64,000 bases of DNA from Purpureocillium takamizusanense (lineage: Eukaryota; Ascomycota; Sordariomycetes; Hypocreales; Ophiocordycipitaceae), in NCBI RefSeq assembly GCF_022605165.1, contig NC_063072.1:372001-436000 (forward strand). The letters are read 5' to 3'. Of the stretch, positions 9,607 through 43,493 are shown piece after piece. The position numbers and the translations under genes are program-made. How positions within the stretch are numbered: position 1 is the first letter of the stretch; every line of letters starts with the position of its first letter. The notes under the pieces are model-generated. The model was not told where the DNA came from and ran no database searches. It was given only the letters and a program-made list of their open reading frames with translations.

Positions 9607-11614
9607 CTACGCACACGACTGCCTACAGTAGTCTGACATATGCGTCGTTGCCCCTACTGGTATAGGAGGGTGGTCTAAAGCCTCTACACCCGGACTTGGG
9701 TCATCGGCTCTCCAGAAGTCTTTGACTCCGAAAAATTGCTCCAGGATGTCTCGTTTCCTTGGCTTCAGCGATACGGTTCGCGGTATCTGCTCTCCGTCTT
9801 GTACGATGCGTAGGAGACATGGGAGCATGTACGGGGGTAACGTCTCCGATAAATCGGCTCTGATGCGAGTCAATGATACCTCTGCTCGAGGCAAAATCCT
9901 GCTGCTCAGGCAAATGAGAGCTCCACAGAGGTGTCTTGCCTCTTGGTCAGGGACTCCAAGAATATATGCTTCAGAGACATATGGGAGAGCCGTCAGCGCA
10001 CCCTCAACCTCCAGGGCTGGTATTTTACAATGGTGAAAGCGTATATCTACAAACTCGGTCAGAAATTCTGGCAACTGCATGTCACAATTATATATCTGGA
10101 GTCCTTGGAAAACGTACAGTCGGAGTTTGCTCGACCGTCAAATATGAACTCGCCATCGATGATGTGCGCAAGGTCCCCGGTTCGCAAGAAGCCGTTCTCG
10201 TCGAATGCGGCTTTTGTGGCTTCTTCGTCCGCCAGATAACTAGCCAAATACCTGAATTAGCACCTCACCGGACAGCCGCTCGCCGAGTCCTATTGCGTTG
10301 TTACATGATAGGGGCACGTACCGGCTGAGCATGGCCGTATGTTTCACCAGGATTTCGCCATGGTCTTCCTCTGAGAGCTTGACGTCCACTCCTGCCACTG
10401 GGAACCCAAGGGAACACTGGACAGAGCAAATGTGGGGTTAGCCGATGGGTAAGCCGAGGCTTGGGTTGGCCCTATATTCCGTACCTCGTTGTTGACTGAC
10501 TCTCGACAGTCCGTTTGCAGAGCAATAGCTCCAATTTCCGTCGAGGCATAGACACTCACAAAAGGCTTGCCACAGAGGTCTGTCCAGAATTGACGTGTTC
10601 TTCTTGAAACCAAGGCGCCACCTATTGTGATTTTGTCCAGGTTCTTGAAGCCATCGAGGTACTCCTGAAGCTCGCTGTCTGAGATGTGAGACAGCTCGTC
10701 CATATATATCTCTTCTAGCTGTCGAAGCAACCCCGGGGCGAAACACATGTATGTGATACGATGGTTCTTCAGTGTATCCCATATTGCTCTCGCGCCGGCT
10801 CCTTCTTTCAATATGTGGGTTTGCATGCCGCTCAAAACGGGCTGAAGCAGATTTGCTAGGCCCCCCATCCAATTCGGTGGTCGACAGCTGATAGTTGCAC
10901 TGTTGTGCTCAGCCATGCTCTGCAATGCAAGGCATTGCTTAGGCAGCACCGCAGCCTTGGGGATACCGGTCGTGCCCGAGGTAAAGATGACCAGACCAGG
11001 ACTTCGTGGGTCAATCTGTAGAGATTCGCTGATTGAAACGTTGAGGTGATGCAGAGGCGGCGCATCACTGGAAATGAGGACAACGGTAACACATAAGGCC
11101 GAATCCTCAGTCTGCCCCATGCACTTGCCGATGCTGTCGGCTTGGTTGTGATGTGATTGATCGGCTAGCAGGCCGATCGCGTTGGCTTTTAATAGTATGA
11201 CTTGTATCTCGTGCGAACGAGTACCGGAAGCTATCAGCACACATTTTGTTCAGCGCTGTCATTATTGCTGTGTACCAAAAGTACGAGATGTGATGTTTAC
11301 CCACCCAAAGGTATGCAAGCTCCTCCAATGGCCCGGATGGCGAAGAAACCGACGATAAATTCGTACCCGCTGTTAGCCAGAATAATCACATACGGGCGGC
11401 TTTTCTGCACAAGGCCCTCGCTATCCAGCGCTGCCGGTGGCAAACGGGTCCGAAGGAGATTTCGCGTTTGGATAACATCTCCCAGTAGATCTGCGTATGT
11501 TTTGTCGAAGCCGTATCCATCGTGGATCATAGGTTCTGTCGTCCGCCTTACCACTTTGAGTAGCTGGACCAGCATTGGGTCATTCGGGATGATGTTACTT
11601 GCGGTAGAGGCCAT
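9607..11614 (-). CDS. AMP-dependent acyl-CoA synthetase/ligase, 4CL-like (possibly inactivated)
   Basis: Adenylate-forming enzyme of the 4-coumarate:CoA ligase/acyl-CoA synthetase group. Exons on the minus strand are 11614-11305, 11230-10485, 10416-10322, 10251-10118 and about 10053-9607. Landmarks: P-loop-like FTSGTTGIPKAAV, an A5-type YASTEIGAIAL, the hinge region with GFLRTGDL then FIFDGRANSD, and a C-terminal lobe with CKIPALEVEGALTALP and a terminal Lys in TVSLKPRK. Expected size is about 576 aa. Four exon joins are in phase. The last one, between donor 10117 (GTACGT) and acceptor 10054 (GAG), is one base out of register with the C-terminal lobe, so the gene may be frameshifted or use splicing I cannot see. 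Substrate is unknown: fatty, aryl or malonyl-type acids are all possible. The small C-terminal lobe carries the CoA step. Confidence 0.75.
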
Positions 11615-13902: not shown

Positions 13903-15310
13903 CCATCATAGGAATGGTGCCAGAGGCGGCGAAAACTAGGCATACTAAATTTTTATTGTTAACATTTATATTATTTAAGTATATAGTTATATGGGAACTA
14001 TTAATTTAATACCTCTAATATTATTCTTTCGAGATAAGATACATATTGACCTTAGTATAATATATATTACTTAAGCGTGAATTTCATATCTTTACACTCT
14101 AAAAAAAAGATATAGCTAAGCTACCTTATAATCATACGTAGCGGCACGCAACGAGATACCACTTTACCATCCAAGTTATGAGCCGCAGGGCGGTTTCGTG
14201 GTTTGGTCACCATGCGCAGTTAAAGTCTGGCTTGAGTCTCTCTCTACTGACGACGACCGCCTTTTCCTCCCCGCCTGGCCTTGGGCTTTAGAGTGTGCAG
14301 CCTGGACGGCGCTCTCTCGCGAGTTTGTGTCGAGCTATACGATTCGCGCTCCCGGGACCCGAGGGAAATAGAATAGCGGGGGGAAGGGGAATGTCGCCTT
14401 GCTGCCTTTCTTCGAAATGGGAACCTAGTACGGATATGTCGTTGGTATCGGCATGGTTGGACCTATCGTCGTGTGGTTTGAGCGCTGCCTGGCGGTGGTC
14501 GATCTGCCCGCTTAGATCGTCGAGCCGGCGCTACCAGCCCGGGATGTTGTTGGTGAGGTTCTTGAGGGCGTCCATGGCCGTCTCGTGTGGCTCCATTGTC
14601 CGGTGCTCAAGGGAGGTATGGAACACACTGACTACAGAGCGGACACGAGGAGGACTATGGAGAGCATCTCCGCGGTGATGTCGTCGTCAGTTTAACAATG
14701 GACACCTAGCTATCATCAAGGGAGACCAATATCCCGGTCATCAATCAGGCAACTCGGACTTCTCCTCTACGGTCCCATGACAAACTGTAGGCCCTATATT
14801 ACGTCATCTACTCAACTATCTCCTCTCGGCAAGAAGTCACCAGGAGGACGATGTTGCAGGGATGTCTGGTAATTAGACGGTACTAATCGAGTTTTTCAAT
14901 TGGGACTAAGGAAGCTAGATCCCTGCTGCTCAGCTCACCTTTTAATATCATCGCATAAGATTAGACCACAAGACGTTCTACAGCCGTTACGCGGCTCCTC
15001 GTCTTCCAATATAATGATTGAGTAAGCCATTCCGCATAATATAAATTTTTTTGAGCTCACGCGCATTTAAATTCCCGTGGGGAGAGTAGTGAGCTCACGC
15101 GCATAAGTGAGGCTACAAGACGCATGAATGACGCTATGCTTTATAGGTCGTCCTGGCTAGGGATGCAGGACCCTAGGTAATTACGTTAACGATCGTTCAT
15201 GGTTAAAAAGTGCCGAGAGGAATGATATGAGATGCGTTACGCTTAGACATCGCACCTGCAGATTTCGAAAAACCTCTGCGTTCCGTCTCAGCCGCTATTA
15301 CGGACTCATT
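13903..15310. other. intergenic with short RIP-like patch
   Basis: About 1.4 kb. The stretch 13940-14140 is TA-rich and RIP-like. The remainder has normal composition with no convincing gene. A 14-base direct repeat (15053-15066 and 15091-15104) lies about 210-260 bases upstream of the next start codon and may be a promoter element. Confidence 0.45.
15053..15104 (+). promoter_or_regulatory. 14-bp direct repeat upstream of the enterotoxin-like gene
   Basis: GAGCTCACGCGCAT occurs twice in the same orientation, at 15053-15066 and 15091-15104, start to start 38 bases apart. The second copy ends 206 bases before the ATG at 15311. A paired transcription-factor site is possible; no factor can be named. 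Confidence 0.35.
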
Positions 15311-17338
15311 ATGAAGCCCAAGTATCTTGTGTTCTTACTGTCAGGCCTTTTGGCCTCTGCTGCGGAAGACCCGGGGCGTGGTCCCGGGGCGGCCAACGGT
15401 GCAAACGGCGGCACCTTCACACCGGAGGATAGCGGTCCGGGTGGTGAGCTTACAGGTTTTGAGGAAGCCACACCCAAAAAGGGGCCAGGCCTACCACCAG
15501 GCCACGAAGCTCCGGAGTCAGATGGTGCCAACTTTTGGAACCCATCGAACTGGCGGGGTGCCGAGAAGATTGACGCAAAGGCGGCGTCTGAAATTCCGAC
15601 TCCTAAGAATGAGGGGAGTGCCAAAGGCTTCCTTTACTCTCCACGACCTGCAAATCAAGAGCTCGGTGACGTCTTTGACAACGGCCTAAAGCGCACTCAG
15701 CTTGCTGTCGAAGCCAAGCCCGTTGGCATCAAGGAGACGCATTTTGTCCAGCTCACCGGCTCGGCGCAAGTAGCATATAAAGGCTCGATCAGGCCCGGCA
15801 CGCCGGCCTACTTTCTCAAGATCTCGCCACAGAATCTTGAGGATGGGTACTACCTCCCCAGCAGCCATCCCGAGTTCACCGAAGCCAAGAAATACACGTT
15901 CCTTACGCCGGGGAATGTCCCCAGAGAGAGCATCGTCGGCGCTTGGAAAGTCCGCGCTCGGGACTTGGAGGCGCCCCAGCTCGAGTGGGTGCCCAATCCT
16001 CACTATTCATGCCTCGACAAGATCAAAGACTTTTGCACCAAGCCGCGTGAGCAGTGGCGCGTCAAAACCCGATCTAGCTGCTTTCCAAGAATGTTCAAAA
16101 GAGGCGTCGGCGCCGGTTTTGAGCCATGCCTGGAACCGCTTGAGGAGACGGCAAGTGAAGGCGCCGCCGCCGAGGGCGCCGCCGAAGTCGCAGTGGAATC
16201 GTTCGTCAAGGACGTATCGCAGCCAGCACTACAGAAGGAGGAACTTGAGAAAATCGCCGACGACTTCGCGGAGTCGCTGTTCCAACGCTGGGTGGCCAAG
16301 TACGGGTTCAAAAACATGAAGTCTCTCGACGGGGTGCCGGTTAAGGACCTCTATCCTAAGTTCCGGGCACAGATGAAGGGCTACAAGACTCTCTACATGA
16401 AACCAAGCAAAGCATCCCCGGGCATGGGCATTGTAGCTGTTGTGGGCGTGGGGTTCTGGGTCAAGGATGTCGTCGACGCCTTTAAAAGGGACCTCCCCTG
16501 GGAAGAGAAGGCTGCGGTCGCTACATCCATCGTGCCGATTGTGGGGTGTGCAACGAGATTTGCCGCTGATGGCGCCGCCGATGGGAGCAGCTTTGACGTG
16601 GCCAAGATTGCTGACACGCAAGCTTGCGTTGCTGCCGACACCCTACTTCTCAGCCCCGCGTGGCCGCTTGGCCTGGCTATACACGGTGTACGAAACCTCG
16701 TCAAAACGATACCCGCCGCCCTCAAGATGCAGGCTGAATGGGACAAGCTGAGAAGTGCCGAAGGCCTGAAGCAGCGCTACAAGGAAGAATGGTCCTCGAT
16801 CCGTAATCAGATACTGAACTCAACGACGATCCACTTGACCGAGCTTCAGGTAGATCGAAACATAACCATTTCTCGTCTGTCGGATCTCATGGTGGCAGCA
16901 GAGGCGGGTGGCATCCTCAAAGCTGGCCAAGTCAGCAACACTACAGATCAGGCAGCGCGACAGAGACTGCTGGAAGACGAGGAATTCCCCGGTCGCCAGG
17001 AGCTCGAGAAAGTCATATGCGACAAGTTTACGAATCGGACGAGTACAGTTCGCATCGACCTGGACCAGTCGAGACAAGCTATCAATCATCGAATCGCTAC
17101 CGAGCGACGCAAATTTATGCGGAACTTCATAGGGCACTATACGACATTCCTCGTGGACAATATACCCAGGGGGGCCTATAATATTCCACCGAGGGAGAAG
17201 TACGTTCAAAAACTTAGAAATCACGTTAAAGATGTGGCGACAGAGATGGATAAAACAGTGCGTGAAGGCGAAGTCGGCCTAGAGGATATTGATAAAGTGA
17301 TGAGAATCCCTCCAATTCCTCCTACCTGTATGGAGTAG
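15311..17338 (+). CDS. secreted heat-labile-enterotoxin-A-like protein
   Basis: Single exon. The ATG at 15311 is preferred over one at 15227 because it places a clean signal peptide first (MKPKYLVFLLSGLLASAA), giving about 675 aa. A Gly/Pro-rich linker follows. Residues ~105-240 show the layout of a cholera/heat-labile-enterotoxin A-chain ADP-ribosyltransferase fold. The C-terminal half is helical, with a hydrophobic segment (about residues 375-395), a LPWEEKAAVATSIVPIVGC region and long amphipathic helices. Such helical tails occur in the enterotoxin-like proteins expanded in insect-pathogenic hypocrealean fungi. By eye the N-terminal arginine, the Ser-Thr-Ser motif and the first glutamate of the catalytic pair look substituted, with one glutamate kept, so enzymatic activity is doubtful. 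N-glycosylation sequons (NST, NIT, NTT, NRT) fit secretion. Family call is moderate. Confidence 0.6.
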   Translation: MKPKYLVFLLSGLLASAAEDPGRGPGAANGANGGTFTPEDSGPGGELTGFEEATPKKGPGLPPGHEAPESDGANFWNPSNWRGAEKIDAKAASEIPTPKNEGSAKGFLYSPRPANQELGDVFDNGLKRTQLAVEAKPVGIKETHFVQLTGSAQVAYKGSIRPGTPAYFLKISPQNLEDGYYLPSSHPEFTEAKKYTFLTPGNVPRESIVGAWKVRARDLEAPQLEWVPNPHYSCLDKIKDFCTKPREQWRVKTRSSCFPRMFKRGVGAGFEPCLEPLEETASEGAAAEGAAEVAVESFVKDVSQPALQKEELEKIADDFAESLFQRWVAKYGFKNMKSLDGVPVKDLYPKFRAQMKGYKTLYMKPSKASPGMGIVAVVGVGFWVKDVVDAFKRDLPWEEKAAVATSIVPIVGCATRFAADGAADGSSFDVAKIADTQACVAADTLLLSPAWPLGLAIHGVRNLVKTIPAALKMQAEWDKLRSAEGLKQRYKEEWSSIRNQILNSTTIHLTELQVDRNITISRLSDLMVAAEAGGILKAGQVSNTTDQAARQRLLEDEEFPGRQELEKVICDKFTNRTSTVRIDLDQSRQAINHRIATERRKFMRNFIGHYTTFLVDNIPRGAYNIPPREKYVQKLRNHVKDVATEMDKTVREGEVGLEDIDKVMRIPPIPPTCME

Positions 17339-18110: not shown

Positions 18111-20432
18111 ATGCCCGGCAGACAAATCAAGACGTGCGAGCGCTGCCGCCTGTTCAAGATCAAGTGCGACCGCGAGCAGCCCGCCTGCCTGCAGTGCCGG
18201 CGCGCCCACGCCAAGTGCTCGCAGTGGCCCCCCGCCGCTGGGACGTCGTCGTCGTCGACGTCGTCGGGCGGGACGTCTCCAGCTTCGGCCGACACGAGCG
18301 TGACCGCGGGTTCAGCCGAGGCGAGCGAGGCGGCTGCTCCTCGTCCGGCCGCGAACCTTGACGACGACGACGACGACGACTCGGCGAGCCGTCCGCCGCC
18401 CGCAGACGTAGACGCAAACGCCGTCGACGCAGACGGCCGACATGACGCCCGCGAGGATGCGCCAGACGCCCATGACCGGATGAGCCCCGCGAGGAAGAAG
18501 CGCCGCAGGGCTTGTCTCTCGTGCGTGCGCTGCCACCGGCTCAAGGTAAAGTGCGACAAGAAGCAGCCCTGCACGCGCTGTCGCCTGTCGGGCTGGGGCC
18601 GCCAGTGCGCCTACACGCATCGCGTCGAGGATGAGGCGACGATGATGGCGCGCGACGATCCGTCGACTCCGGCTTCTGCCGATGCCGTGCCCTTTGTCGT
18701 CACCGAGGAGGAACCCGAGACCGTCATCACCACCTGGCACGCGAGACACCGAGGGCTGAGCCACTGGAGGGCCCTTCTCTGCAGGGTGCGTGAACCCTGG
18801 CCCATGCATATATCATGGCCAAGTCGCTGACGTTTGTAACTGCTCAAGCTGGACTCTCTGAGCGACCTGACGAGTCGGGTCCTGCACACGCCAGCCACCG
18901 ACATCGCGCAGCAGCACACCCAATGCGCCCAGGGTCGCGCCCTGCCCGGCAACTTCCCCTTCAACAGCCCCGGCGCGGTGCGCTTCGCCGCCTCGCCCTC
19001 CCTCGAGCCCGTGCGGCAGCTCCTCGAGACGCACCGCGCCCGCCACGAGCTGTATGTCGACGCCTACCTCGCGCTCTACCAGCCGCTGCATCCCGTCATC
19101 GACACGCCGCGCTTCCTCACCGAGACGGCGCGCTTCTGGGACGACCCCTCCGGCACGCACGTCGGCTGGCTCGCCGAGATGCTCATGGTGATGGCGCTGG
19201 GCTGCTTTGCGGTCGAGAGCCGCGGCGGGAGGGACCCCGAGTCTACCGTGGAGCTCTGCATGGCCGCCGAGGCGTGCCTCGCCCGCACGCCCTTTATGCT
19301 GAGGCCGACCGTATCGACGATGCGCACGCTCTGCCTCATGCTGCTGGCTAAGCAGGTCATCAACGGCACGTGTTGGTCCTTTGACTCGTGCTGGGCCCTG
19401 CTCGGCGTCGTGGTCCGTCTCGCCGTTTGCATGGGCATCCACCGGCCCGAGCCGCCGCCCGACGCGCCCGCCGTGGCGTTCCGCGACTGGGAGGCCGGCC
19501 AGCTCCTCTGGACGACGATTCTGTACTTTGACGTCCAGATGGCCGTCACGACGGGCATGCCGTCTTGCCTATCCGCGGACGAGCTGCTGCGCGACAACGG
19601 CGGCATGTCGTGGACGTTCCCCACGCTGGCCACGCCCACGGCGGCCTGGCACGCCGTCATCCACACCGCGTGCCCGACCATCCTGCAGGTGGTGACGCGC
19701 GTCAACTCGGCAGTCGACCGGCCGTCGTACGAGGAGATCATCGAGCACAGCGCCAAGGTGCGGCAGCTGATGGGCATACTCGAGCGGGTGCGCGGGCCCG
19801 AGGTGACGCCCGCGCTGCGCATCGCCATCGACGTCTTCTTCCGCCGCGTCCTGCTCGTGCTGCACCGCCGCCACGCCCTCGAGCCCGACGCGCCCGCGCG
19901 GTACCCGATATCGTACTGGGCGTCGCTCGAGTGCAGCCTCGCGCTGCTGGTGCAGCACCGGGAACTCTGCGACGCCGAGGCCGAGGCGGCGGCGCGGCTT
20001 GGCGGCAGTAACAACGACAACATGAACAACAACACGAACAACGCCAACAGTAACGAGAGCACCGAGGCAGCAGGCGGCGACGCAGGCGGCGACGCAGGCG
20101 GCGGCGGCGGCGGCTATGACGAAGAAGCCAAGCCGCCGCCGCTACCGATATGGGACGTCCGCGGGCTGGGGCCCCTGGCCGACATGTACATGCTGGACTT
20201 CTTCGCGGCGGCCCTGACGGCCAGCCTGCACCTCCTGCGCGAGGACGCGCCCCTGGCGGACGGCTTCGCGATCCCGCCGCGGCGCACCATCCTGGAGACG
20301 CTGGAGCTGTGGACCGACAGCTACGCCAGCAGGCAGCATCGGTCGCTGTGCTTCCGGAGCGGATACCGCCTGCTCAAGTCGGTGGTCTCCGAGCTGTCGG
20401 AGCGCGCCAACAGTTCCGCTGCGAAGCCGTAG
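18111..20432 (+). CDS. transcription factor with two tandem Zn2Cys6 clusters
   Basis: Two exons (18111-18785, 18849-20432; phase-0 intron with GTGCGT donor and AAG acceptor) encode about 752 aa. The first binuclear zinc cluster is at residues ~9-36 (CERCRLFKIKCD...CLQCRRAHAKC). The second is at ~140-170 (CLSCVRCHRLKVKCD...CTRCRLSGWGRQC). They are separated by a Ser/Asp/Ala-rich linker containing a run of aspartates. The second half is a fungal_trans-type regulatory domain: helical, beginning near SLEPVRQLLETHRARHELYVDAYL and including HPVIDTPRFL and GCFAVESRG. An Asn/Gly-rich low-complexity insert lies near its C-terminus. It is nuclear by family. One zinc cluster is the rule, so the tandem pair is unusual. 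The gene stands about 700 bases upstream of, and in the same direction as, a galactonate-dehydratase-like gene, a possible target. Confidence 0.88.
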
Positions 20433-34316: not shown

Positions 34317-34769
34317 TTACTGCTTCTCCTCCGCTGCAAGGACTCCAGTTAGCATATGTACACACAAGCACACACACAAGCACACAAGCCCATAAGACGC
34401 AGCGCCCTCAATCCCTTCCACGAGTGCCAAAACTCCCAAGCCCGAACCAAACCAAACCAAACCCGGAACCAAACAACCGCCAAGGTAATGAAAGAACATC
34501 AATTGACACAGGACGGGGCTAATTCGTTCGTAGCAAGGGAAGATGAGGCGCGGAACAATGGCCAAGGAAGGAAGGGAAGGAGGGGGGCACTCACGCTGCT
34601 GGGTCAACAGCAGGCCGAAGCGGCGCTTCAGCGTCACCCGCTGCCGGGACCACTTGTCGTCGGGCGAGAAGCGCGCCGGGTGCGCCGACTTGGTGACCTG
34701 CCCGTGGGCGACCTTTTTGAGCGTGTAGAGGCGGTTGCCCTGCGCGTCGAGCGTGTACATGAGATGCAT
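34317..34769 (-). CDS. nop10: NOP10, H/ACA snoRNP subunit
   Basis: Two exons on the minus strand: 34769-34595 (58 codons plus one base) and 34333-34317 (17 bases), total 63 aa. The first exon carries the whole NOP10 fold: [19 protein letters not shown], the [16 protein letters not shown] core and [11 protein letters not shown]. The last exon adds only PEEKQ. The 261-nt intron has a GTGAGT donor, a TGCTAAC branch and a CAG acceptor. NOP10 is a nucleolar component of H/ACA pseudouridylation particles with Cbf5, Nhp2 and Gar1. The usual zinc-binding cysteines of archaeal Nop10 are absent, as in other eukaryotes. Confidence 0.93.
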
Positions 34770-36185
34770 CGTGATGTAGAGGCCTTGCGTTTTGTTTCGG
34801 TTCCGGTTTTGGTTTCGCCGTGTCTTTTTTTCTTTCTTTTTTTGGGTCGTTGTGTGGCGAGGGGGGGTTGCGTGTGCTTGCACGACGGACGGGCGTTTGC
34901 GCGGCAAACAAGAGAGAGAAAGAGAGTTGGGTTTTGTTCGCGGGTGGTGAGAAGTGGTGATACTGGATGGGGTGTGCTTGCGGCGGTGGGTTGGGTGGGT
35001 GGTGTTGAAAAATTTCGGAGGACCGCGCCGCCGCGCTGGATAGTGGGTCACGTGCCTGCTTATCGATTTCCGGTGGGTGGTTGCGCCAACGACCTTGAAC
35101 GCCGATGAGCCAGCCTCGTCTCGTATATTACGTAGTGTCCCACGGCGTTGCGTAGCGGGTCATAGATAGCTATTAAAGAGCGTAGGCCGTCCGGCCTGCA
35201 GCATAGCCGTAAAGCTTATCCGACCCGTTGCGATCCGCGCAGTACTAGCTTGTCATCCTACATTCGTAGGCGTCAACTTTACACTATTTACGAAGTAATT
35301 AGGCCCGGAGGATTCCAGTTTTCAATCATTCGAGATACACCGTCGTACGTAGGTGAGGGACATAAGACGCAATATATATATATAGCTCCATATCTCACAC
35401 TCCACGATCTCATACTGTTTCAAGAATTTCACCTTAGTGCCTTCCACATAGCTCTCCGACATAGGCAGTACGCAAGAGCCTTTATCTTACAGTATTCGAA
35501 TGTCACGCTACATGTCTTCTCGATAGATGTCTTCCTACTACAGCCTGATGAACATTCAATGTTGCATGGCGGCGGGAAGGCTCAAGTTAGTCTTCCTTCA
35601 TACCTGAGGTTCCTTCTGCTCGCAGAGACGAGGGATGAATGGTGATGGGGGATGCTACAAAAGGACTACTGGAACAAGTTCGTTTTGATGCAGATGTATT
35701 TGTATGTGAGGCTGAGTTTTATATGTGTGTGATGTGTGCGTCTGTGTCAGTGTCTTTAGCGCTCGACAATAAAGTGCAGCCTGTTGCCCGCTTAGTATGT
35801 TTGTTAGAGGAGCACCATGTACAAAGTATAGCTATGCCGTTTCTCTATTTAATGGCTCATCCAAGATCCGCCAAGTTGGGGCCTAAAAGGGCCACACTGT
35901 CCCCTGCTGGGCTGCCGGGCTACAGCCACGGCATTTATGCCAGCGGGCCGCGCGAGCGCTACGCGCACTAAAGGCATCGCAGGATGCCGAGCTGCAGCCT
36001 CTAGAGCAGCTGGGTGCGCGCGATTGAGGCCTGAGAGCAGACCAGCTCGCTACGTACAGCGGCATATGGAACGGCACTGTGACTCGCTATGGGATAGGGG
36101 TTGCTTTGCTATTGTCCGTCACGGGCTTGGCAGGCCACGGCATGTGTGGATAGAGATACGCATGACTGTAAAGAATGATACTTAT
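34770..36185. other. intergenic, degenerate sequence
   Basis: About 1.4 kb between the NOP10 start and the 3' end of a secreted-protein gene. The NOP10-proximal 350 bases are the likely promoter. The rest is of mixed composition, with an AT run at 35371-35382. Short frames show no motifs. Confidence 0.4.
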
Positions 36186-36870
36186 TTAAAATTGAAATTC
36201 GAACTCAGAGACGATGCGAAAATTCCGCTCGCCATCACTCCTAATATAATCGCGGGACCATTCCTTCGACTCGGCCGCCGTCCAGAGTGGCCAGGAGATC
36301 TCGGCGTTTTTATCACATACCGCCCTCTTCTTCCCCTTGGGCGTCTTGCACCTTAGTGGAGGTCGACACTATTCCAAATCAGCCCTGCGGTCCAAGTGCC
36401 CGAAGCGGCCTTGTTGGAGGATACATGTACGGAAGGGGGCTGCCATGGGTTGACAAGAGCCGGGGTACGCGTGCGTGGGCATCAGACTTACTCGGTGGCT
36501 CCGATCACAACGCCGTACAGTCCAACCAGGATCGACCAGAAGGGCTTCTCCAGCCTTGATGTTCTCTTCGGCTTGGTATCGCCATATTCTCTCGTAACAC
36601 TCCCCATTGGTCAAACACCTCTAGGCACATGGCAGCGTAAGCACTCGTTCCTCTAACAACATATTGATCAAGAGAAGCGATGTTGTTGCTCACCCCCCAC
36701 GCATCTTCATGCGTGTTGCGCCAGTGGGCGATGTTTTCTCTGAAGGTGTCCAGGTCCTTGACTGTAACTCTGGCCTTCTTCGGTTGCTCTGGTTGCGTTG
36801 ATTTGTCCATGGCCAGCACGAGGCCATAGAGCGTCATCAAGAGTAGAAAGAGAGCGGTTCTAACGCTCAT
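36186..36870 (-). CDS. small secreted cysteine protein, member A of a three-gene family
   Basis: Predicted exons on the minus strand: 36870-36694 (59 codons), 36620-36492 (43 codons) and 36368-36186 (60 codons plus stop), both introns in phase 0. About 162 aa. Signal peptide MSVRTALFLLLMTLYGLVLA. Exon 1 ends ...EDAWG. Exon 2 begins RC and ends CDRSHR. Exon 3 begins with Cys. Six cysteines at about 61, 67, 97, 103, 109 and 119 (spacings 5, 29, 5, 5, 9) match the two paralogs at 38631 and 40722. Donors are GTGAGC and GTAAGT, acceptors CTAG and AATAG. Exon 3 has alternative acceptors (for example after 36410) that would give a shorter tail lacking cysteines. The chosen one is supported by the family pattern. 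Function unknown; secreted and disulfide-rich, so effector-like. It is the most divergent member and lies on the opposite strand. Confidence 0.6.
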
Positions 36871-38630
36871 CGCGTCCGACTCGCCGCAAAAGTTTGCGCG
36901 TTGGCCAAAGGGTAAAGGCAAGCAGCCAGTAGCTTAGATAGCGGGTTGAAACGGTGCCGTACTGACGTCTGGGGAGGAAAAGAAGGAGGCGGAGAAGCAG
37001 ACAGCAACACTGTAGTTATATAGACTTGATATCTGCACAGATATTGCCGCAATGCGTGCGCGAAAAAAAAAAACCATGGTTCGTATGGATGACCAACAGG
37101 GCGGGTTGATGTTTCAACATTCAACGCCGCCCTGGCCATCAAGGCCCCGCATCTCCTTATCGACACAGCAGCAGGGCGATGACATGACCTTTTCCTTACG
37201 ACATCATATCGTGTGCTTCCAAGAACGATGGCGCAGCGCCAGCCATATACCAGGTCCAATGTCCATGTCGGGCGTAAGGCCTGGCAATATGACATGAACG
37301 ACAAGGCAAAATGTACGGAGTATGAGAAGGGGCTGTTGAGGTGATGGGATCATGGCCTTTATCATGATCGCTTTAGACCCCGAAGTAGCATGCAAATCAC
37401 CATACGTTCTCCAGCAGACGAAACCACTTTCTGAAAAAGTTCATTCCTTGTAGGTGCACGGAGGTTGGTTGTAGTTGGTCAATCCCGCCGCAAAAAAAAA
37501 AGGCGGCTGGCTAGCCGGGTCCCTTGGCGCAGGAAGCGACCTACATGGAGGCCAACAGGGGTTGAAGATAAACGGATGAGGGGGGAACGAAACTGCACAG
37601 GAGAGTCCACGGTTGTGGACATCGAGGTTGCTTGTCTGCTCTTGGCACGTAGCATTTCCTTTGCGGTTAATGTGTGAGCGCAACCCAAACTCTAGTGATG
37701 CAATTCGACATGGGCATCTTTTATTGACCCCACGTGAATGCCTTTGCTTTGAACAGAAGGGAGAGCACCTTGCTTGTCTCGCAAGCACGATTCTCTTCCG
37801 TAACGACCGCAACCTCGTTTACAAAACGGCAACAGGGAGTGTCACGTTCGACACATGTACACGAGTAACGATGACCAAGGCGCATGACCGTCAACCCGAT
37901 CGCATGCACCTGTATGGTTACGCATGGGCTTTCAAAATGAAGACGAACCATTCATCACCCCTCTGATGGGCAAAGTCGCCTATGCCCTGCGCGATTTGCA
38001 GGGGCCGTACTTGGTGTCCAGGATGCAGCACAGAGGTTTGAGCACCGACGCCCCTTACCGTGCGCACAACACGCATCACCGGCTCGTTCGCCGCTGAGTC
38101 GTTGAACAATGCACTGACCCTCGCCCGGGTCAGGACATGCTTCCACTGCCGTAGCGGCGGGGCGCGTGTCGCCTTGCTACGCAGTGCCTCGCGAAGTCAC
38201 GGACAGTGCAGGGACGCAGAAGGCCCCGGGCGACACGGCGTTGGGTCGGGTTGCGCAAGGCCTGCTTCGCAATCATCTACATTTGACGCAGGTCATGCTC
38301 GACGGTGAAGTAGCCTCGACCAAGTACGTAAGTGTTAGCCAAGAAGCCGGTGTAAATTCGTGGGTAGCCGTTGGGCCAAACGGCTAGAGTGATTGCTTAG
38401 AACTCTGTGAATTGGTAACCAAGCTCTTCTGGTCTTTCTTATTACTAGACTTCTATGCGCCAATATGAATGATGAACCCTGCCATCGCCTCCTTTCGTTT
38501 TCACGTCCCTCTATGGCAAGACGTCTTGGAGTCCTCCAAGGCAACTCGCAACATTGCTTCGCATCGCACAACCATCAATACGAAGTACTAGCAGACAGAC
38601 CTTCCTGGGACGGGAGGAAAACCGACCACC
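36871..38630. other. divergent promoter region between family members A and B
   Basis: About 1.76 kb between the two divergently transcribed secreted-protein genes. I searched it by eye for a further exon with the family's cysteine pattern and found none. Frames are short and without motifs. Confidence 0.45.
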
Positions 38631-39321
38631 ATGAAGCACCTCGGCCTCGCACTCCCATCAACGCTGCTACTGCTGCTCTTCAGTGGCGGGAGCCACGCGA
38701 AGGGAAGACACTGGATGAGTGCCCTCGACGGGCCGCAGGACTTGAAGACGGCCCAGGTGTCCGTTCAGGAGTGGAACGGCAACATCACGGGGGTAAGTGA
38801 GCACTGGGCTTCCGGTCGACCCCCGTTTTCTCTTCCCATATTCCACACCCCGTCTTGTCCAAAAGCAGGCGTCCGGGATCCCACGTGAAGGTGAAAGCTA
38901 ATCAGAAGCTTCCCCCGGTACCCGTCTCGCGATGCAGGAATGCTCAGAAACCACTCAGAGATGCGAATTTTCCAACTTCGCGGTAATTGATCCTCGGTAC
39001 AACTACAACAATGGCCAGCCCGTGAAGTTCAGCCATATAAAACGTGGCCTGCCTTGCGCCAAGGATAAACCGGTAAGCAATGGCGCGGCCCTTGAAGATG
39101 GCCAGCAGACACCAGCCCATTATGATTGGAAATAAGTGACGGGATCTTGGGCTGACCAAGAAACCCCCTTCTCTACCGATATATAACAGTGCAAAAACCC
39201 GCCCGGCAAATGCCAGCATCCGGATCCCAACCGCGCTGCAGATTGCACCGTGCCCTGGAAGGCCGGAAGCACGCGGCAGGCCGAACCGTCTGTGGCACCT
39301 TCGTCGACCGGGGGCCGTTGA
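38631..39321 (+). CDS. small secreted cysteine protein, member B of a three-gene family
   Basis: Exons 38631-38792 (54 codons), 38938-39072 (45 codons) and 39190-39321 (43 codons plus stop). Both introns are phase 0 with GTAAGT and GTAAGC donors. 142 aa. Signal peptide of about 23 residues (MKHLGLALPSTLLLLLFSGG, then SHA). Exon 1 ends EWNGNITG. Exon 2 is the conserved block, starting ECSETTQRC and ending GLPCAKDKP. Exon 3 begins CKNPPGKC. Cysteines at about 56, 63, 94, 100, 107 and 118 (spacings 6, 30, 5, 6, 10). The tail after the last cysteine is Ser/Pro/Gly-rich. It resembles member C in exon 2 (C-x3-TQ-x-C-x-F) and shares splice positions with both relatives. No known family recognised. 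Expected to be secreted with three disulfides. Confidence 0.75.
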
Positions 39322-40189
39322 TACTGCCGTGGTGCGGGGGGAGAGCCTATGCTGTATCTGCAGAGAGCTCCGGCTGGCGGTAGACTCGACCTGCACCGGG
39401 GGCGTAATGCAGTGTGCAACATCATGCGGGAGGTTGAAGTTGATTGGGGCGAGGATGCATGCGTTGGTGGATATTTTCCGCGGGGTGGGGGATATGGAGA
39501 GACTTTGACGAGACTTGAAAAAGTAGAATGACTTGTGTCGATGCAGTTTATCGCGATGTACCAAGCGACGGATACCCGCTATGCGGCAAAGACGAGGCAG
39601 CCTATAGAACTCAAGAAACGGCTCAATTGCTATATCACCATGGTTAGTCCAGTCACCAGCACGACGTTTCCCTTGTGTGTTCCACCACCCGCCCTTTCTC
39701 CCTTGAATAGCTGACCGATGTCCTCAGCGTCTTGAATGTTCTACTTCTTCGTCCTCCTCCAGTCCTCTTCTCGTACGCCTCCTCACAACAGACGTTACCA
39801 TGCCAAAAAGAAGAAGATGAAAGAAGAAAAAAGACATTAAAAACGAATAGCACCCAAGGTCCATGGCCAAGTTATGTCATCTTCCCCTTCACCACACAGT
39901 AGATCAGATACTGGCCTCCCCTCGAACACTCAGCCCTCCTCCCGCAAATATCCAACTCACCACATGACCCTCGCCGCGCACCAAGAAGGGTAGGTCAAAA
40001 AAAAAAAAGAAAATACGGAAGAAGCCGCCAAACGCACGGTTGAGTACCCATCTCCGGTGCGTGCGTGCCCAACCCACCCAGCAAGACACGCACACGCACA
40101 CACACACACACACGTGCCATGTCGCTGAAACAACTCCAGGCCCTACCATTTTGCAAATAAGCACAGGCATCCGGGGAAGCGAAAAGATA

Positions 40190-40224
40190 AGAAGGACAAG
40201 AAGAAGAAGAAGAAGAAGAAGAAG
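40190..40224. repeat. (AAG)n microsatellite
   Basis: About eleven AAG trinucleotide units in tandem in the spacer between two secreted-protein genes. Confidence 0.85.
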
Positions 40225-40308
40225 GGCAAAATTGGCAAAGCTTTAGTCAAACGACGTTGTGAACGAGCTGTGTTACGGGCCCCATTCATGTAAACGAGTT
40301 GTCGTTGC

Positions 40309-40339
40309 AGCATCATCATCATCATCATCATCATCATCA
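40309..40339. repeat. (ATC)n microsatellite
   Basis: About ten ATC units in tandem, 85 bases after the AAG tract. Confidence 0.85.
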
Positions 40340-40721
40340 GCAACGCGCCAGCCCGGCACCGGCGGCGTCAGTGCGTGCGTGCGTGCGTGCGTGCCAGGCT
40401 TGAATGAACTGACGTAAAAACGGATTTCATGGAGTGAATTCCCTCTGCACGTCGGCTATGCCATGATATTGACCAGAAAAACCCCCCCTATATTATCCAT
40501 ACAACCCTCCTCTTCCCGCTTCCTTGCCCCCCGTTCTTCTTCTTCCTCCTTTCTTTCCCCTTTTCCACACCGTTCCAACACGGAGCAGGAGGATAACAGA
40601 ACGGATTACTCTTCGGTTTTTCTTCTTCTTCTTTCTTTTCACAAAACACGACCAATAACGCCCAACAGGACAGCTTTCCTTCCTGGCCCCCCCCCCCCGC
40701 GTCCCATTCGGATCGGAAACC

Positions 40722-41573
40722 ATGGCACGAAGCAGCCTCATCCCCTCCCCCGCCTCGCTCCTGCTCCTCCTGCTGCTGCCCCTCCTCGGCAGCAGCCACC
40801 CCGGCAGCGGCGGCTTCGGCGACGTGCCGGCCGACCTCCGATTCCACGGCAGCTACCCCAGCGAGGACGACGCCAATGACGCAATCAGAAAGTTCAACTG
40901 GAACAGCCTCGGGGTGCGTTAGGGTTATGGTTGTGTCCTTACCCCCCCCCCCCCCCGGGCGCGCGCCCCGTGCCGTTTGTTTTTTTTTCGTTCTTTTTTT
41001 TTTGAACCCCCTTTCCCACAACCACACTATACCTACAGTCGTTATTGAACGAGCTCGAACCATTGAACCAAGTAAAACTAAAGAACACCTGCGGGGGGCC
41101 GGGGTGGGGGGGTTGTCAACCACCACCACCCCGACTCTTTGCACACGCACGCAGAAATGCGACGACGTAACCCAGACCTGCTGCTTCGAGTACGCATTGA
41201 TCGTCTTCCCGGAAAGGATGGTCGTCGGGCACCCGTGGGACGTCCATATCGGTGTGACGACGAAACCTTGCCATTCGTGGCCCCGTGTAAGTCCCCCCCC
41301 CCTCCACCCGGATCCCTTCCGACCACCACAACCTACATAACCCTACCTACTTTACCCACCTTACCCACCTTACCTACCTTACCTACCTTACCTACCACCA
41401 AAGTCAGATTACACCAGGCCCCCTGGCAAGCAAAACAAAGAAAGACACGAAAACATTGAAATAAAGAACCCATATTGGCTAACAAATTTTGTCGCGTTGC
41501 CTAGTGCCCTGAGGGGGGCGGCAATTGTCGGTTTTACGAGGTCACAGATAAGAGTGTGTTTTGCCTCTACTAG
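40722..41573 (+). CDS. small secreted cysteine protein, member C of a three-gene family
   Basis: Exons 40722-40913 (64 codons), 41155-41286 (44 codons) and 41505-41573 (22 codons plus stop). Both introns are phase 0 with GTGCGT and GTAAGT donors, and a GGCTAAC branch site lies in the second. 130 aa. Signal peptide with a poly-Leu core (SLLLLLLLPLLGSS). Exon 1 ends FNWNSLG. Exon 2 begins KCDDVTQTCCF and ends PCHSWPR. Exon 3 begins CPEGGGNC and ends CLY. Family cysteines at about 66, 73, 103, 109, 116 and 128 (spacings 6, 29, 5, 6, 11), plus one extra Cys at 74. It resembles member B in exon 2 and shares identical intron phases and positions. Function unknown; effector-type secreted protein. 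Confidence 0.75.
41345..41398. repeat. TTACCTACC/TTACCCACC minisatellite in an intron
   Basis: About six copies of a nine-base unit within the second intron of family member C. It expands the intron without touching exons. Confidence 0.8.
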
Positions 41574-41936: not shown

Positions 41937-43493
41937 TCACATGTTGACCTCGCCGACGCGCGCGGACTTGTCGCCCAGCCAGTCGTCGCGCTCGTAGAAT
42001 CGGAATACGAGATCGTAGTCCTCAAAGTCGTGTACGATGCGGTCGACGCGGCGGTACCCACGCACCGGGTCGACGAGTCGCTGCATGGCCAGGTTCTTGA
42101 GCGTGCCGTCGCCCATGCCGTAGGGGTTGGCGCCGCGGCCCTTGGCCTCGAAGAGGGTGACGCTGAAGCGGCCGGGGCGGAAGATGCTGACCACGTGCTC
42201 AATGATTTCGGCCGTGGTGCGCCCGTTCTGCCCGCTGGGCACGTTGGTCTCAAACGAGGCGTACGAGAAGCCGGGCTCGGGCGTGACGTGCACCGTGAAG
42301 TAGTGCGTCGAGTTGTGCGGGTCCGCCTCGGCCGACGCCGGCGCCGGGATGACGCCGTTGGCGGAGAAGCCGCAGGGGCTGAACAGGTAGGCGTCGACGC
42401 GGGCATCTGGGTATACCGATGTCGGGTAGACCTGGGACAGTCCGCAATTGTCGGAGACGACGGTGCCCAGGGCGTGACCCTCGGTGGTGAGCTCCTCGGC
42501 GGTGAGCTCCTGGGTCGCGCTGGTGAGCTTGGCCTTGGCCTCGTCCAGGTCCGAGTCACCGCAGTTCTCGAACACGTCCACCTCGTCGGGCGGGGTGGAC
42601 AGGTCGCCCAGGCTGTCGACGGCCGCCTGGCGAGCCTCCCGGGCCTGCGCAGCCATCTTGTCGGTCGCGACCGCACTCGCGTCGGACAAGAAGAACTGCT
42701 TGGCATTCTCGGGGTCAAGGTCCGTCATGAGGATCTCAAGCGTCTCGTCGTTGTGGTTGGCGCCGGGCGTGTTGGCACCCGTGGACGCGACCGAGTACTC
42801 GGGCGTCGGCTGGCCGTGTGCCTCCGACTCGGGCGTCAGGGGCGGCGTGAGCGTCTGCCTGGGCGACGTGATGTACAGGTACCAGTGGTCACCGTTCATC
42901 TTGCCCACCATGTAGGCGCTGCCGCCGCCCTCGAGCGAGTCGTCGAGGTACTTGACCTCCTGCTTCCAGCTGCGGTGTGGGCCGCGCTGCTCGTTGGGGA
43001 ACAGAAAGTTCTTGCGGCTGTAGAAGACTCGGTACGGGACGGCGGCGGCGCGGATGTCGCCGACCGAGGCGGCCTTGTGGAAGGGGAAGCCCGCGTCGGC
43101 GGCAGCGATGTGGAGCAGGCGCTGGAGGCCCAGAAGCAGCGTCGTGGTGCCGCATGTCTTGAGGATGAGCTTGTGGGGGAAGACGAACATGCTCGACTCG
43201 GACAGCAGGTAGGCGTCGACGGCCTCGGACTCGAGGACCGAGAGGATCTTGCAGTTGACCATGTCGAGCATGCCGACCCAGGTGTCCTTGGAGACGCTCT
43301 TCAGGCCGTTGGCACGGACGCCGCTGGGCAGCGTCGCGGCGCTGGGGGCGAACCAGACCTCGAGGAGCTTCTCGGGCCCCTCAAAGGCGCCGCTCGAGTC
43401 GAGGTCTGCCGCGACATCATGATTGATAGTCAGGTGCGGGGTCCCCTCGCTGGGAGAAAAAGTGTAGTTGTTGGGGACCGAGAGGTTGACCAT
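41937..43493 (-). CDS. spe2: S-adenosylmethionine decarboxylase proenzyme
   Basis: Single exon, 518 aa, start at 43493. AdoMetDC makes decarboxylated AdoMet for spermidine and spermine synthesis in the cytosol. The self-processing site is LSESSMFV, with cleavage expected between Glu99 and Ser100, Ser100 becoming the pyruvoyl group. The conserved KTCGTT (Cys114) follows. Further family blocks are YSRKNFLFPNEQ, DHWYLYI and a C-terminal VHVTPEPGFSYASFE segment. An acidic, low-conservation insert (about residues 210-310) is fungal-type. The 5' leader contains a perfect hairpin and lacks upstream ATGs for ~500 bases (separate entry). The gene converges on secreted-family member C. Confidence 0.96.
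   Translation of the reverse strand: MVNLSVPNNYTFSPSEGTPHLTINHDVAADLDSSGAFEGPEKLLEVWFAPSAATLPSGVRANGLKSVSKDTWVGMLDMVNCKILSVLESEAVDAYLLSESSMFVFPHKLILKTCGTTTLLLGLQRLLHIAAADAGFPFHKAASVGDIRAAAVPYRVFYSRKNFLFPNEQRGPHRSWKQEVKYLDDSLEGGGSAYMVGKMNGDHWYLYITSPRQTLTPPLTPESEAHGQPTPEYSVASTGANTPGANHNDETLEILMTDLDPENAKQFFLSDASAVATDKMAAQAREARQAAVDSLGDLSTPPDEVDVFENCGDSDLDEAKAKLTSATQELTAEELTTEGHALGTVVSDNCGLSQVYPTSVYPDARVDAYLFSPCGFSANGVIPAPASAEADPHNSTHYFTVHVTPEPGFSYASFETNVPSGQNGRTTAEIIEHVVSIFRPGRFSVTLFEAKGRGANPYGMGDGTLKNLAMQRLVDPVRGYRRVDRIVHDFEDYDLVFRFYERDDWLGDKSARVGEVNM

Follow-up and report, generated by a model that had tools for sequence, protein, structure and literature searches.

A diverged family of small, predicted secreted cysteine proteins in Purpureocillium takamizusanense and its possible relation to PAF-type antifungal proteins

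The stretch of DNA analyzed here, called the window below, covers 64,000 nucleotides (nt) of contig C5 (NC_063072.1) of Purpureocillium takamizusanense (C5:372001-436000; genome size, ∼35.6 Mb). It contains three genes for small, predicted secreted cysteine proteins. We rebuilt the gene models from sequence alone and called signal peptides only from hydrophobicity and small-residue cleavage sites. Positions are those of the window, and codon counts include the stop codon.

36186..36870, minus strand: gene 1, 162-amino-acid predicted secreted protein; exons 36870-36694, 36620-36492, and 36368-36186 (59, 43, and 61 codons)
38631..39321, plus strand: gene 2, 142-amino-acid predicted secreted protein; exons 38631-38792, 38938-39072, and 39190-39321 (54, 45, and 44 codons)
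40722..41573, plus strand: gene 3, 130-amino-acid predicted secreted protein; exons 40722-40913, 41155-41286, and 41505-41573 (64, 44, and 23 codons)

All three rebuilt genes reproduce the layout that a first-pass annotation of this DNA had described, with a signal-type exon 1 ending in Gly, an exon 2 of 43 to 45 codons starting xC, and an exon 3 starting with Cys. The six introns are all GT..AG and all phase 0, and the retention of any one of them leads to a frameshift or a stop. Branch-like sites (CTRAY or CTTAC) lie 14 to 40 bases from the acceptor in five of the six introns, a count that has no chance control; in intron 1 of gene 3, the only branch-like candidate is CTAAA at −77. Between successive cysteines (C1 to C6), the spacing is x5, x29, x5, x5, x10 in gene 1; x6, x30, x5, x6, x10 in gene 2; and x6, x29, x5, x6, x11 in gene 3. 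The first four intervals are as annotated earlier, while the last is x10 to x11 rather than x9 to x11, and gene 3 has seven cysteines, with an adjacent CC, instead of six.

Gene models read from DNA alone could be chance constructions over noncoding DNA, a concern made sharper by the introns of gene 3, which are long (241 and 218 bases) and repeat-rich. We scanned for the architecture in 264 kb, later 294 kb, of contiguous C5 sequence (the window and adjoining loci) out of the 35.6-Mb genome. Over the 294 kb, the exact pattern of the first-pass annotation returned just the three window genes, and a loosened pattern returned one further match, at C5:473792.

C5:473546-474053, plus strand: gene 4, the fourth family member, ∼60 kb away and outside the window, found by the architecture scan

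Exon 1 of gene 4 begins with a hydrophobic segment and ends in Gly after 57 codons; exon 2 has 41 codons and starts KC; exon 3 has 18 codons plus the stop and starts with Cys, all in phase 0. The cysteine spacing is x6, x27, x4, x4, x10, and a seventh cysteine lies within the C2-C3 loop. With loose limits, the cysteine architecture of exons 2 and 3 gave 4 matches in the genuine 294-kb sequence, whereas 7,126 shuffles of it (dinucleotide shuffles in 2-kb blocks, same total length) together gave 158, or ∼0.02 per 294 kb. When a signal-type exon 1 was also required, 60 shuffles gave no match. A spacing-free scan, which asked for a signal-type exon 1, an exon 2 starting xC, and an exon 3 starting Cys, the latter two with three cysteines apiece, returned these four genes and no others (in six rows, as an alternative acceptor doubled two of them) and nothing in 25 shuffles. 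Without the Gly requirement, a Gly-ending exon 1 was still present for all four genes; among the choices listed, gene 4 also had one alternative exon 1, ending in Tyr. Given four real matches against ∼0.02 per shuffle and the empty spacing-free shuffles, the three window genes and gene 4 are, by their predicted gene models, a real family. The match count, the retrieval of a new gene through the pattern, and the residue similarity between genes 2 and 3 described below together make chance gene models very improbable.

Residue similarity among the members is largely eroded. Of the six gene pairs tested, only genes 2 and 3 are alike beyond their cysteines (P = 0.002 against loop-internal shuffles); the remaining five show no similarity over such shuffles (P = 0.13 to 0.74). 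As this is the only pair supported by residues, the family rests mainly on architecture, and the earlier statement of almost no sequence identity needs correcting for genes 2 and 3. A Thr-Gln precedes C2 in genes 2, 3, and 4 (TTQRC, VTQTC, and RTQIC). Protein searches of the organism's own genome, using as queries exon 2 from genes 2 and 3, the four full spliced proteins, and the gene 4 core, found the query genes only. Two weak matches on contig C4 (E = 0.11 and 0.26) were judged to be chance, their three forward frames showing by eye no layout of signal, xC, and Cys. Whole-genome sequence searches with genes 1 to 3 did not list gene 4, which was caught by the rule combining exon junctions and cysteines. 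An old duplication followed by strong divergence, as first proposed from the window genes, is well supported as an explanation of the predicted genes: the architecture stands far above the shuffle rate, gene 4 was found by it, and genes 2 and 3 are still alike.

The same logic, in which a conserved intron position marks common origin after the sequence has eroded, has been applied to the RNase-like effectors of powdery mildews in the accessible parts of two reports (PMC12830362 and PMC6759760), which raises the question of whether the family could itself be of this RALPH type. Those effectors are described, in the accessible text, as having a YxC motif and a conserved intron position (PMC12830362); their cysteines and intron layout differ from those of the family. 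Y-x-C occurs in none of the four family proteins, whose cysteines number six or seven and whose genes each have two introns, and we find membership in that group barely credible.

A different relationship is suggested by the cysteine framework. All four genes carry a gamma-core, GxC-x5/6-C, which spans intron 1. In the accessible text of PMC6062912, the gamma-core is given as GxC-x3-9-C, and the N-terminal motif of the antifungal protein (AFP) PAF is GKCTKSKNEC. The features concerned are as follows.

36612..36620, minus strand: start of gene 1 exon 2, R-C1-L, which together with the exon 1 Gly gives the gamma-core GRCLTNGEC (motif as defined in the accessible part of PMC6062912)
38938..39072, plus strand: gene 2 exon 2, with C1 and C2 of the gamma-core as well as the C2-C3 loop, which is long at 30 residues (12 or 13 in PAF-type proteins)
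39190..39321, plus strand: gene 2 exon 3, C4-x6-C5-x10-C6, which phmmer aligns to antifungal proteins of PeAfpB type, and a tail

As in the PAF/AFP type (PF11402; PAF, NFAP, PeAfpB, and Efe-AfpA), the proteins are secreted (here by prediction), six cysteines are conserved, and the gamma-core starts the domain. PAF and NFAP have the spacing C-x6-C-x12/13-C-x7-C-x6-C-x10-C, which Efe-AfpA also shows in Table 1 of PMC9605492, as far as that source is accessible. The four genes end in C4-x4/6-C5-x10/11-C6, compared with x6 and x10 in PAF, NFAP, and Efe-AfpA, and intervals 1, 4, and 5 of the family agree with AFP spacing within 2 residues. Fungal cysteine-stabilized alpha-beta (CS-alpha-beta) defensins are likewise small, secreted, and six-cysteine proteins, whose motif is C-x3-C and C-x-C; neither element is present in the family spacing. 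According to the accessible part of PMC4165938, two introns occur in certain fungal defensin genes, the first in phase 0 and the second in phase 2, whereas both family introns are in phase 0. We therefore regard a defensin origin as very unlikely.

A resemblance to PAF-type proteins also appears in the residues of gene 2, the member closest to antifungal proteins. Searched against 177,635 PDB sequences, the gene 2 core gave four listed matches, all of them PeAfpB-like antifungal proteins, of which one is named as chimeric (best E = 0.67). The alignment pairs GECSettqrCef with GECSKEHNTCTY and includes the C-terminal cysteines, and both halves are aligned in three of the four. In a phmmer comparison with five AFPs, gene 2 scored 14.2 bits, which was equaled by 1 of 400 within-loop shuffles, which preserve cysteine positions, and by none of 400 global shuffles. 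Cysteine-anchored scores against four AFPs lay above the within-loop shuffle mean for genes 1, 2, 3, and 4 (z = 1.34, 2.67, 0.85, and 1.71, respectively), with gene 2 alone individually significant on this null (P = 0.008). A profile-profile alignment of the family with AFPs by hhalign covered 52 columns (P = 0.013), and for A4, a domain profile built with gene 2 among its sequences, six of the eight PDB matches listed, all of them weak, were AFPs (E = 2.4 to 9.9).

Gene structure may point in the same direction. The accessible part of PMC6182064 gives two introns for class A and B AFP genes and one for class C; for pafB, the intron lengths are 63 and 62 nt (PMC5788923, accessible part). All four family models have two introns, the number given for classes A and B but not for class C. 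Efe-AfpA, from Epichloë festucae, is a class A protein from the same order, the Hypocreales. In the accessible text of PMC7827515, the guide site used on Efe-afpA and its protospacer-adjacent motif are placed in the first exon, and a T insertion there gives a stop. By our own reading, with the position of the T inferred, the guide site would read I-T-Y-E-G in the frame that explains this stop. Exon 1 of Efe-afpA would therefore extend into the Gly codon of G-T-C1, to its second base or beyond, the place of intron 1 in the family; this comparison covers the guide site only. The mature Efe-AfpA, as described in the accessible text, differs from the family in having 55 amino acids and the usual AFP spacing.

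A number of results weigh against a PAF/AFP origin. The PF11402 model matches none of the four family proteins at an E value of 5, nor does any other Pfam model; all five AFPs supplied do match PF11402. In phmmer comparisons with AFPs, the scores of genes 1, 3, and 4 were reached by 282, 145, and 291 of 400 shuffles, respectively, leaving gene 2 as the sole passer among the four genes tried, and the hhalign probability is 3.3%. The C2-C3 loop has 27 to 30 residues versus 12 or 13 in AFPs, and the C3-C4 loop has 4 or 5 versus 7. Unlike in AFPs, a stretch of 31 to 39 residues separates the likely signal peptide from the gamma-core in the predicted proteins. The core charge at pH 7 is about +5.9 in gene 1 and +2.9 in gene 2, compared with +0.1 to +5.8 for the five AFPs; the cores of genes 3 and 4, at −2.0 and −1.5, respectively, are mildly acidic. 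Because genes 1, 3, and 4 are at shuffle level, the hhalign probability is low, two members are acidic, and Pfam gives no match, we do not assign the family to PF11402.

The PDB searches with the other members add to this. Genes 1 and 4 alone yielded no PDB matches, and those of gene 3 (a chemokine, RNA polymerase, and NAB2) were all unrelated and were judged to be chance. No AFP was among the five PDB matches listed for profile A2, whose matches (collagen IV, cystatin-C, islet amyloid polypeptide, and LITX) were also judged to be chance. For profile A4, the AFPs are outranked by LITX and LaIT1 (E = 0.09 and 0.29), which are insecticidal scorpion peptides. The likeness to these toxins lies in a short stretch around C-x5-C-x4-C (A4 positions 41 to 60), gene 1 on its own gave no such match, and the resemblance is probably convergent. 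Genome searches with PF11402 and with Efe-AfpA found no match, a result that is uninformative; 14 control genomes for PF11402 were equally blank. A scan of genome contigs with PAF and of viral contigs with AFP alignment A3 confirmed no relative.

These negative results could mean that the genes are indeed paralogues but encode secreted cysteine proteins with a fold of their own, unrelated to AFPs, and that these would be host-directed insect effectors diverging under selection. The lack of any Pfam or convincing PDB match would fit this explanation, as would the three of four members without AFP similarity beyond their cysteines, the two mildly acidic members, and the strong divergence. Meimuna opalifera is a cicada. 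Synnemata on this species were the source of P. takamizusanense PT3, an insect pathogen (PMC9302088), and this life style speaks for the same explanation. A separate fold would, however, turn the similarity of gene 2 to AFPs, the gamma-core, the C-terminal spacing, and the two introns into coincidence, and its host-directed, selection-driven part is conjecture. We consider it a serious possibility, albeit a somewhat doubtful one.

Our best explanation is that the family is an expanded-loop, AFP-like offshoot of the PAF/AFP type, with a lengthened C2-C3 hairpin and diverged paralogues, a view on which we find belief and doubt evenly balanced. The first-pass annotation knew of no described family with this pattern. 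That statement stands as far as Pfam is concerned, and the titles and abstract openings covered gave no account of such an exon and cysteine family; nevertheless, its GxC start and C4-C6 end, together with its two introns and the gene 2 residues, suggest the PAF/AFP type.

Under an AFP-like origin, exon 1 would supply the signal peptide and the stretch of 31 to 39 residues, perhaps a proregion; exon 2 would supply the gamma-core and the long loop, probably a hairpin; and exon 3 would supply the closing C4-C6 part. Exons 2 and 3 together would form a compact beta domain with three disulfides, tight and protease resistant. The AFP fold has five beta strands and three disulfides; those of PAF pair C1-C4, C2-C5, and C3-C6, and the same pairing is assumed for the family. 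Once secreted, the proteins may target competitors or the host extracellularly, in an antimicrobial or toxin-like manner. The cationic products of genes 1 and 2 may address membranes, their charges fitting membrane-acting antimicrobials; the mildly acidic products of genes 3 and 4 fit this less and may have another target.

Beauveria bassiana belongs to the Hypocreales, and the bubble protein is a class C AFP, as is also implied by its use as the template for PeAfpC. Seven bubble-protein-like proteins have been predicted from structure in B. bassiana (PMC12099005, accessible part), so that this insect pathogen, too, has several predicted AFP-like secreted proteins, a likeness by description only. 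Efe-AfpA has been suggested to be antifungal and effector in one (accessible parts of PMC7827515 and PMC9605492). By analogy, these relatives would support both antimicrobial and effector uses. A fungal effector role for the present family is a guess, and antimicrobial use is at least equally likely. In a more specific and, we think, unlikely version, the AFP scaffold would have been recast as diversifying effectors, with the gamma-core and C-terminal hairpin kept, the C2-C3 hairpin doubled, and the charge flipped in some copies, so that exon junctions and cysteines would be the chief remaining sign of common origin.

The three window genes lie between NOP10 and SPE2, and Pfam confirms both identifications.

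34317..35051, minus strand: open reading frame (ORF) with a NOP10 domain (PF04135; E = 1.2e-19)
41937..43493, minus strand: SPE2, S-adenosylmethionine decarboxylase (PF01536; E = 1.5e-116)

The three-gene stretch coincides with a dip in GC content, with 0.525 to 0.554 per 2-kb bin at 34 to 42 kb and 0.605 to 0.657 in the bordering bins (two before and three after). Elsewhere in the window, an AT-rich block occupies positions 1 to 2000 (GC content, 0.208, with 0.408 to 0.683 in the remaining 2-kb bins). Parts of an AMP-binding enzyme (PF00501 and PF13193) lie over two ORFs at 9607-11240 on the minus strand, split by an intron or by decay. On the plus strand, an ORF at 15227-17338 (703 amino acids) shows, by eye, a signal-like stretch close to the start of its protein but gives no match to Pfam at an E value of 0.001, and an ORF at 18111-18830 (239 amino acids) has two Zn2Cys6 cluster stretches.

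Should the link to AFPs fail, what would be left is an ordinary, though well-supported, orphan family of small, predicted secreted cysteine proteins. Should it be true, it would connect the literatures on antifungal proteins and fungal effectors, and a single genome would show a scaffold shifting its loop length and charge. The idea of an antimicrobial protein turning into an effector has already been raised for Efe-AfpA (PMC7827515, accessible part). Since the exon-junction and cysteine rule found gene 4, which sequence searches did not list, it could also retrieve hidden members in other Hypocreales and test the shift from antimicrobial to effector.

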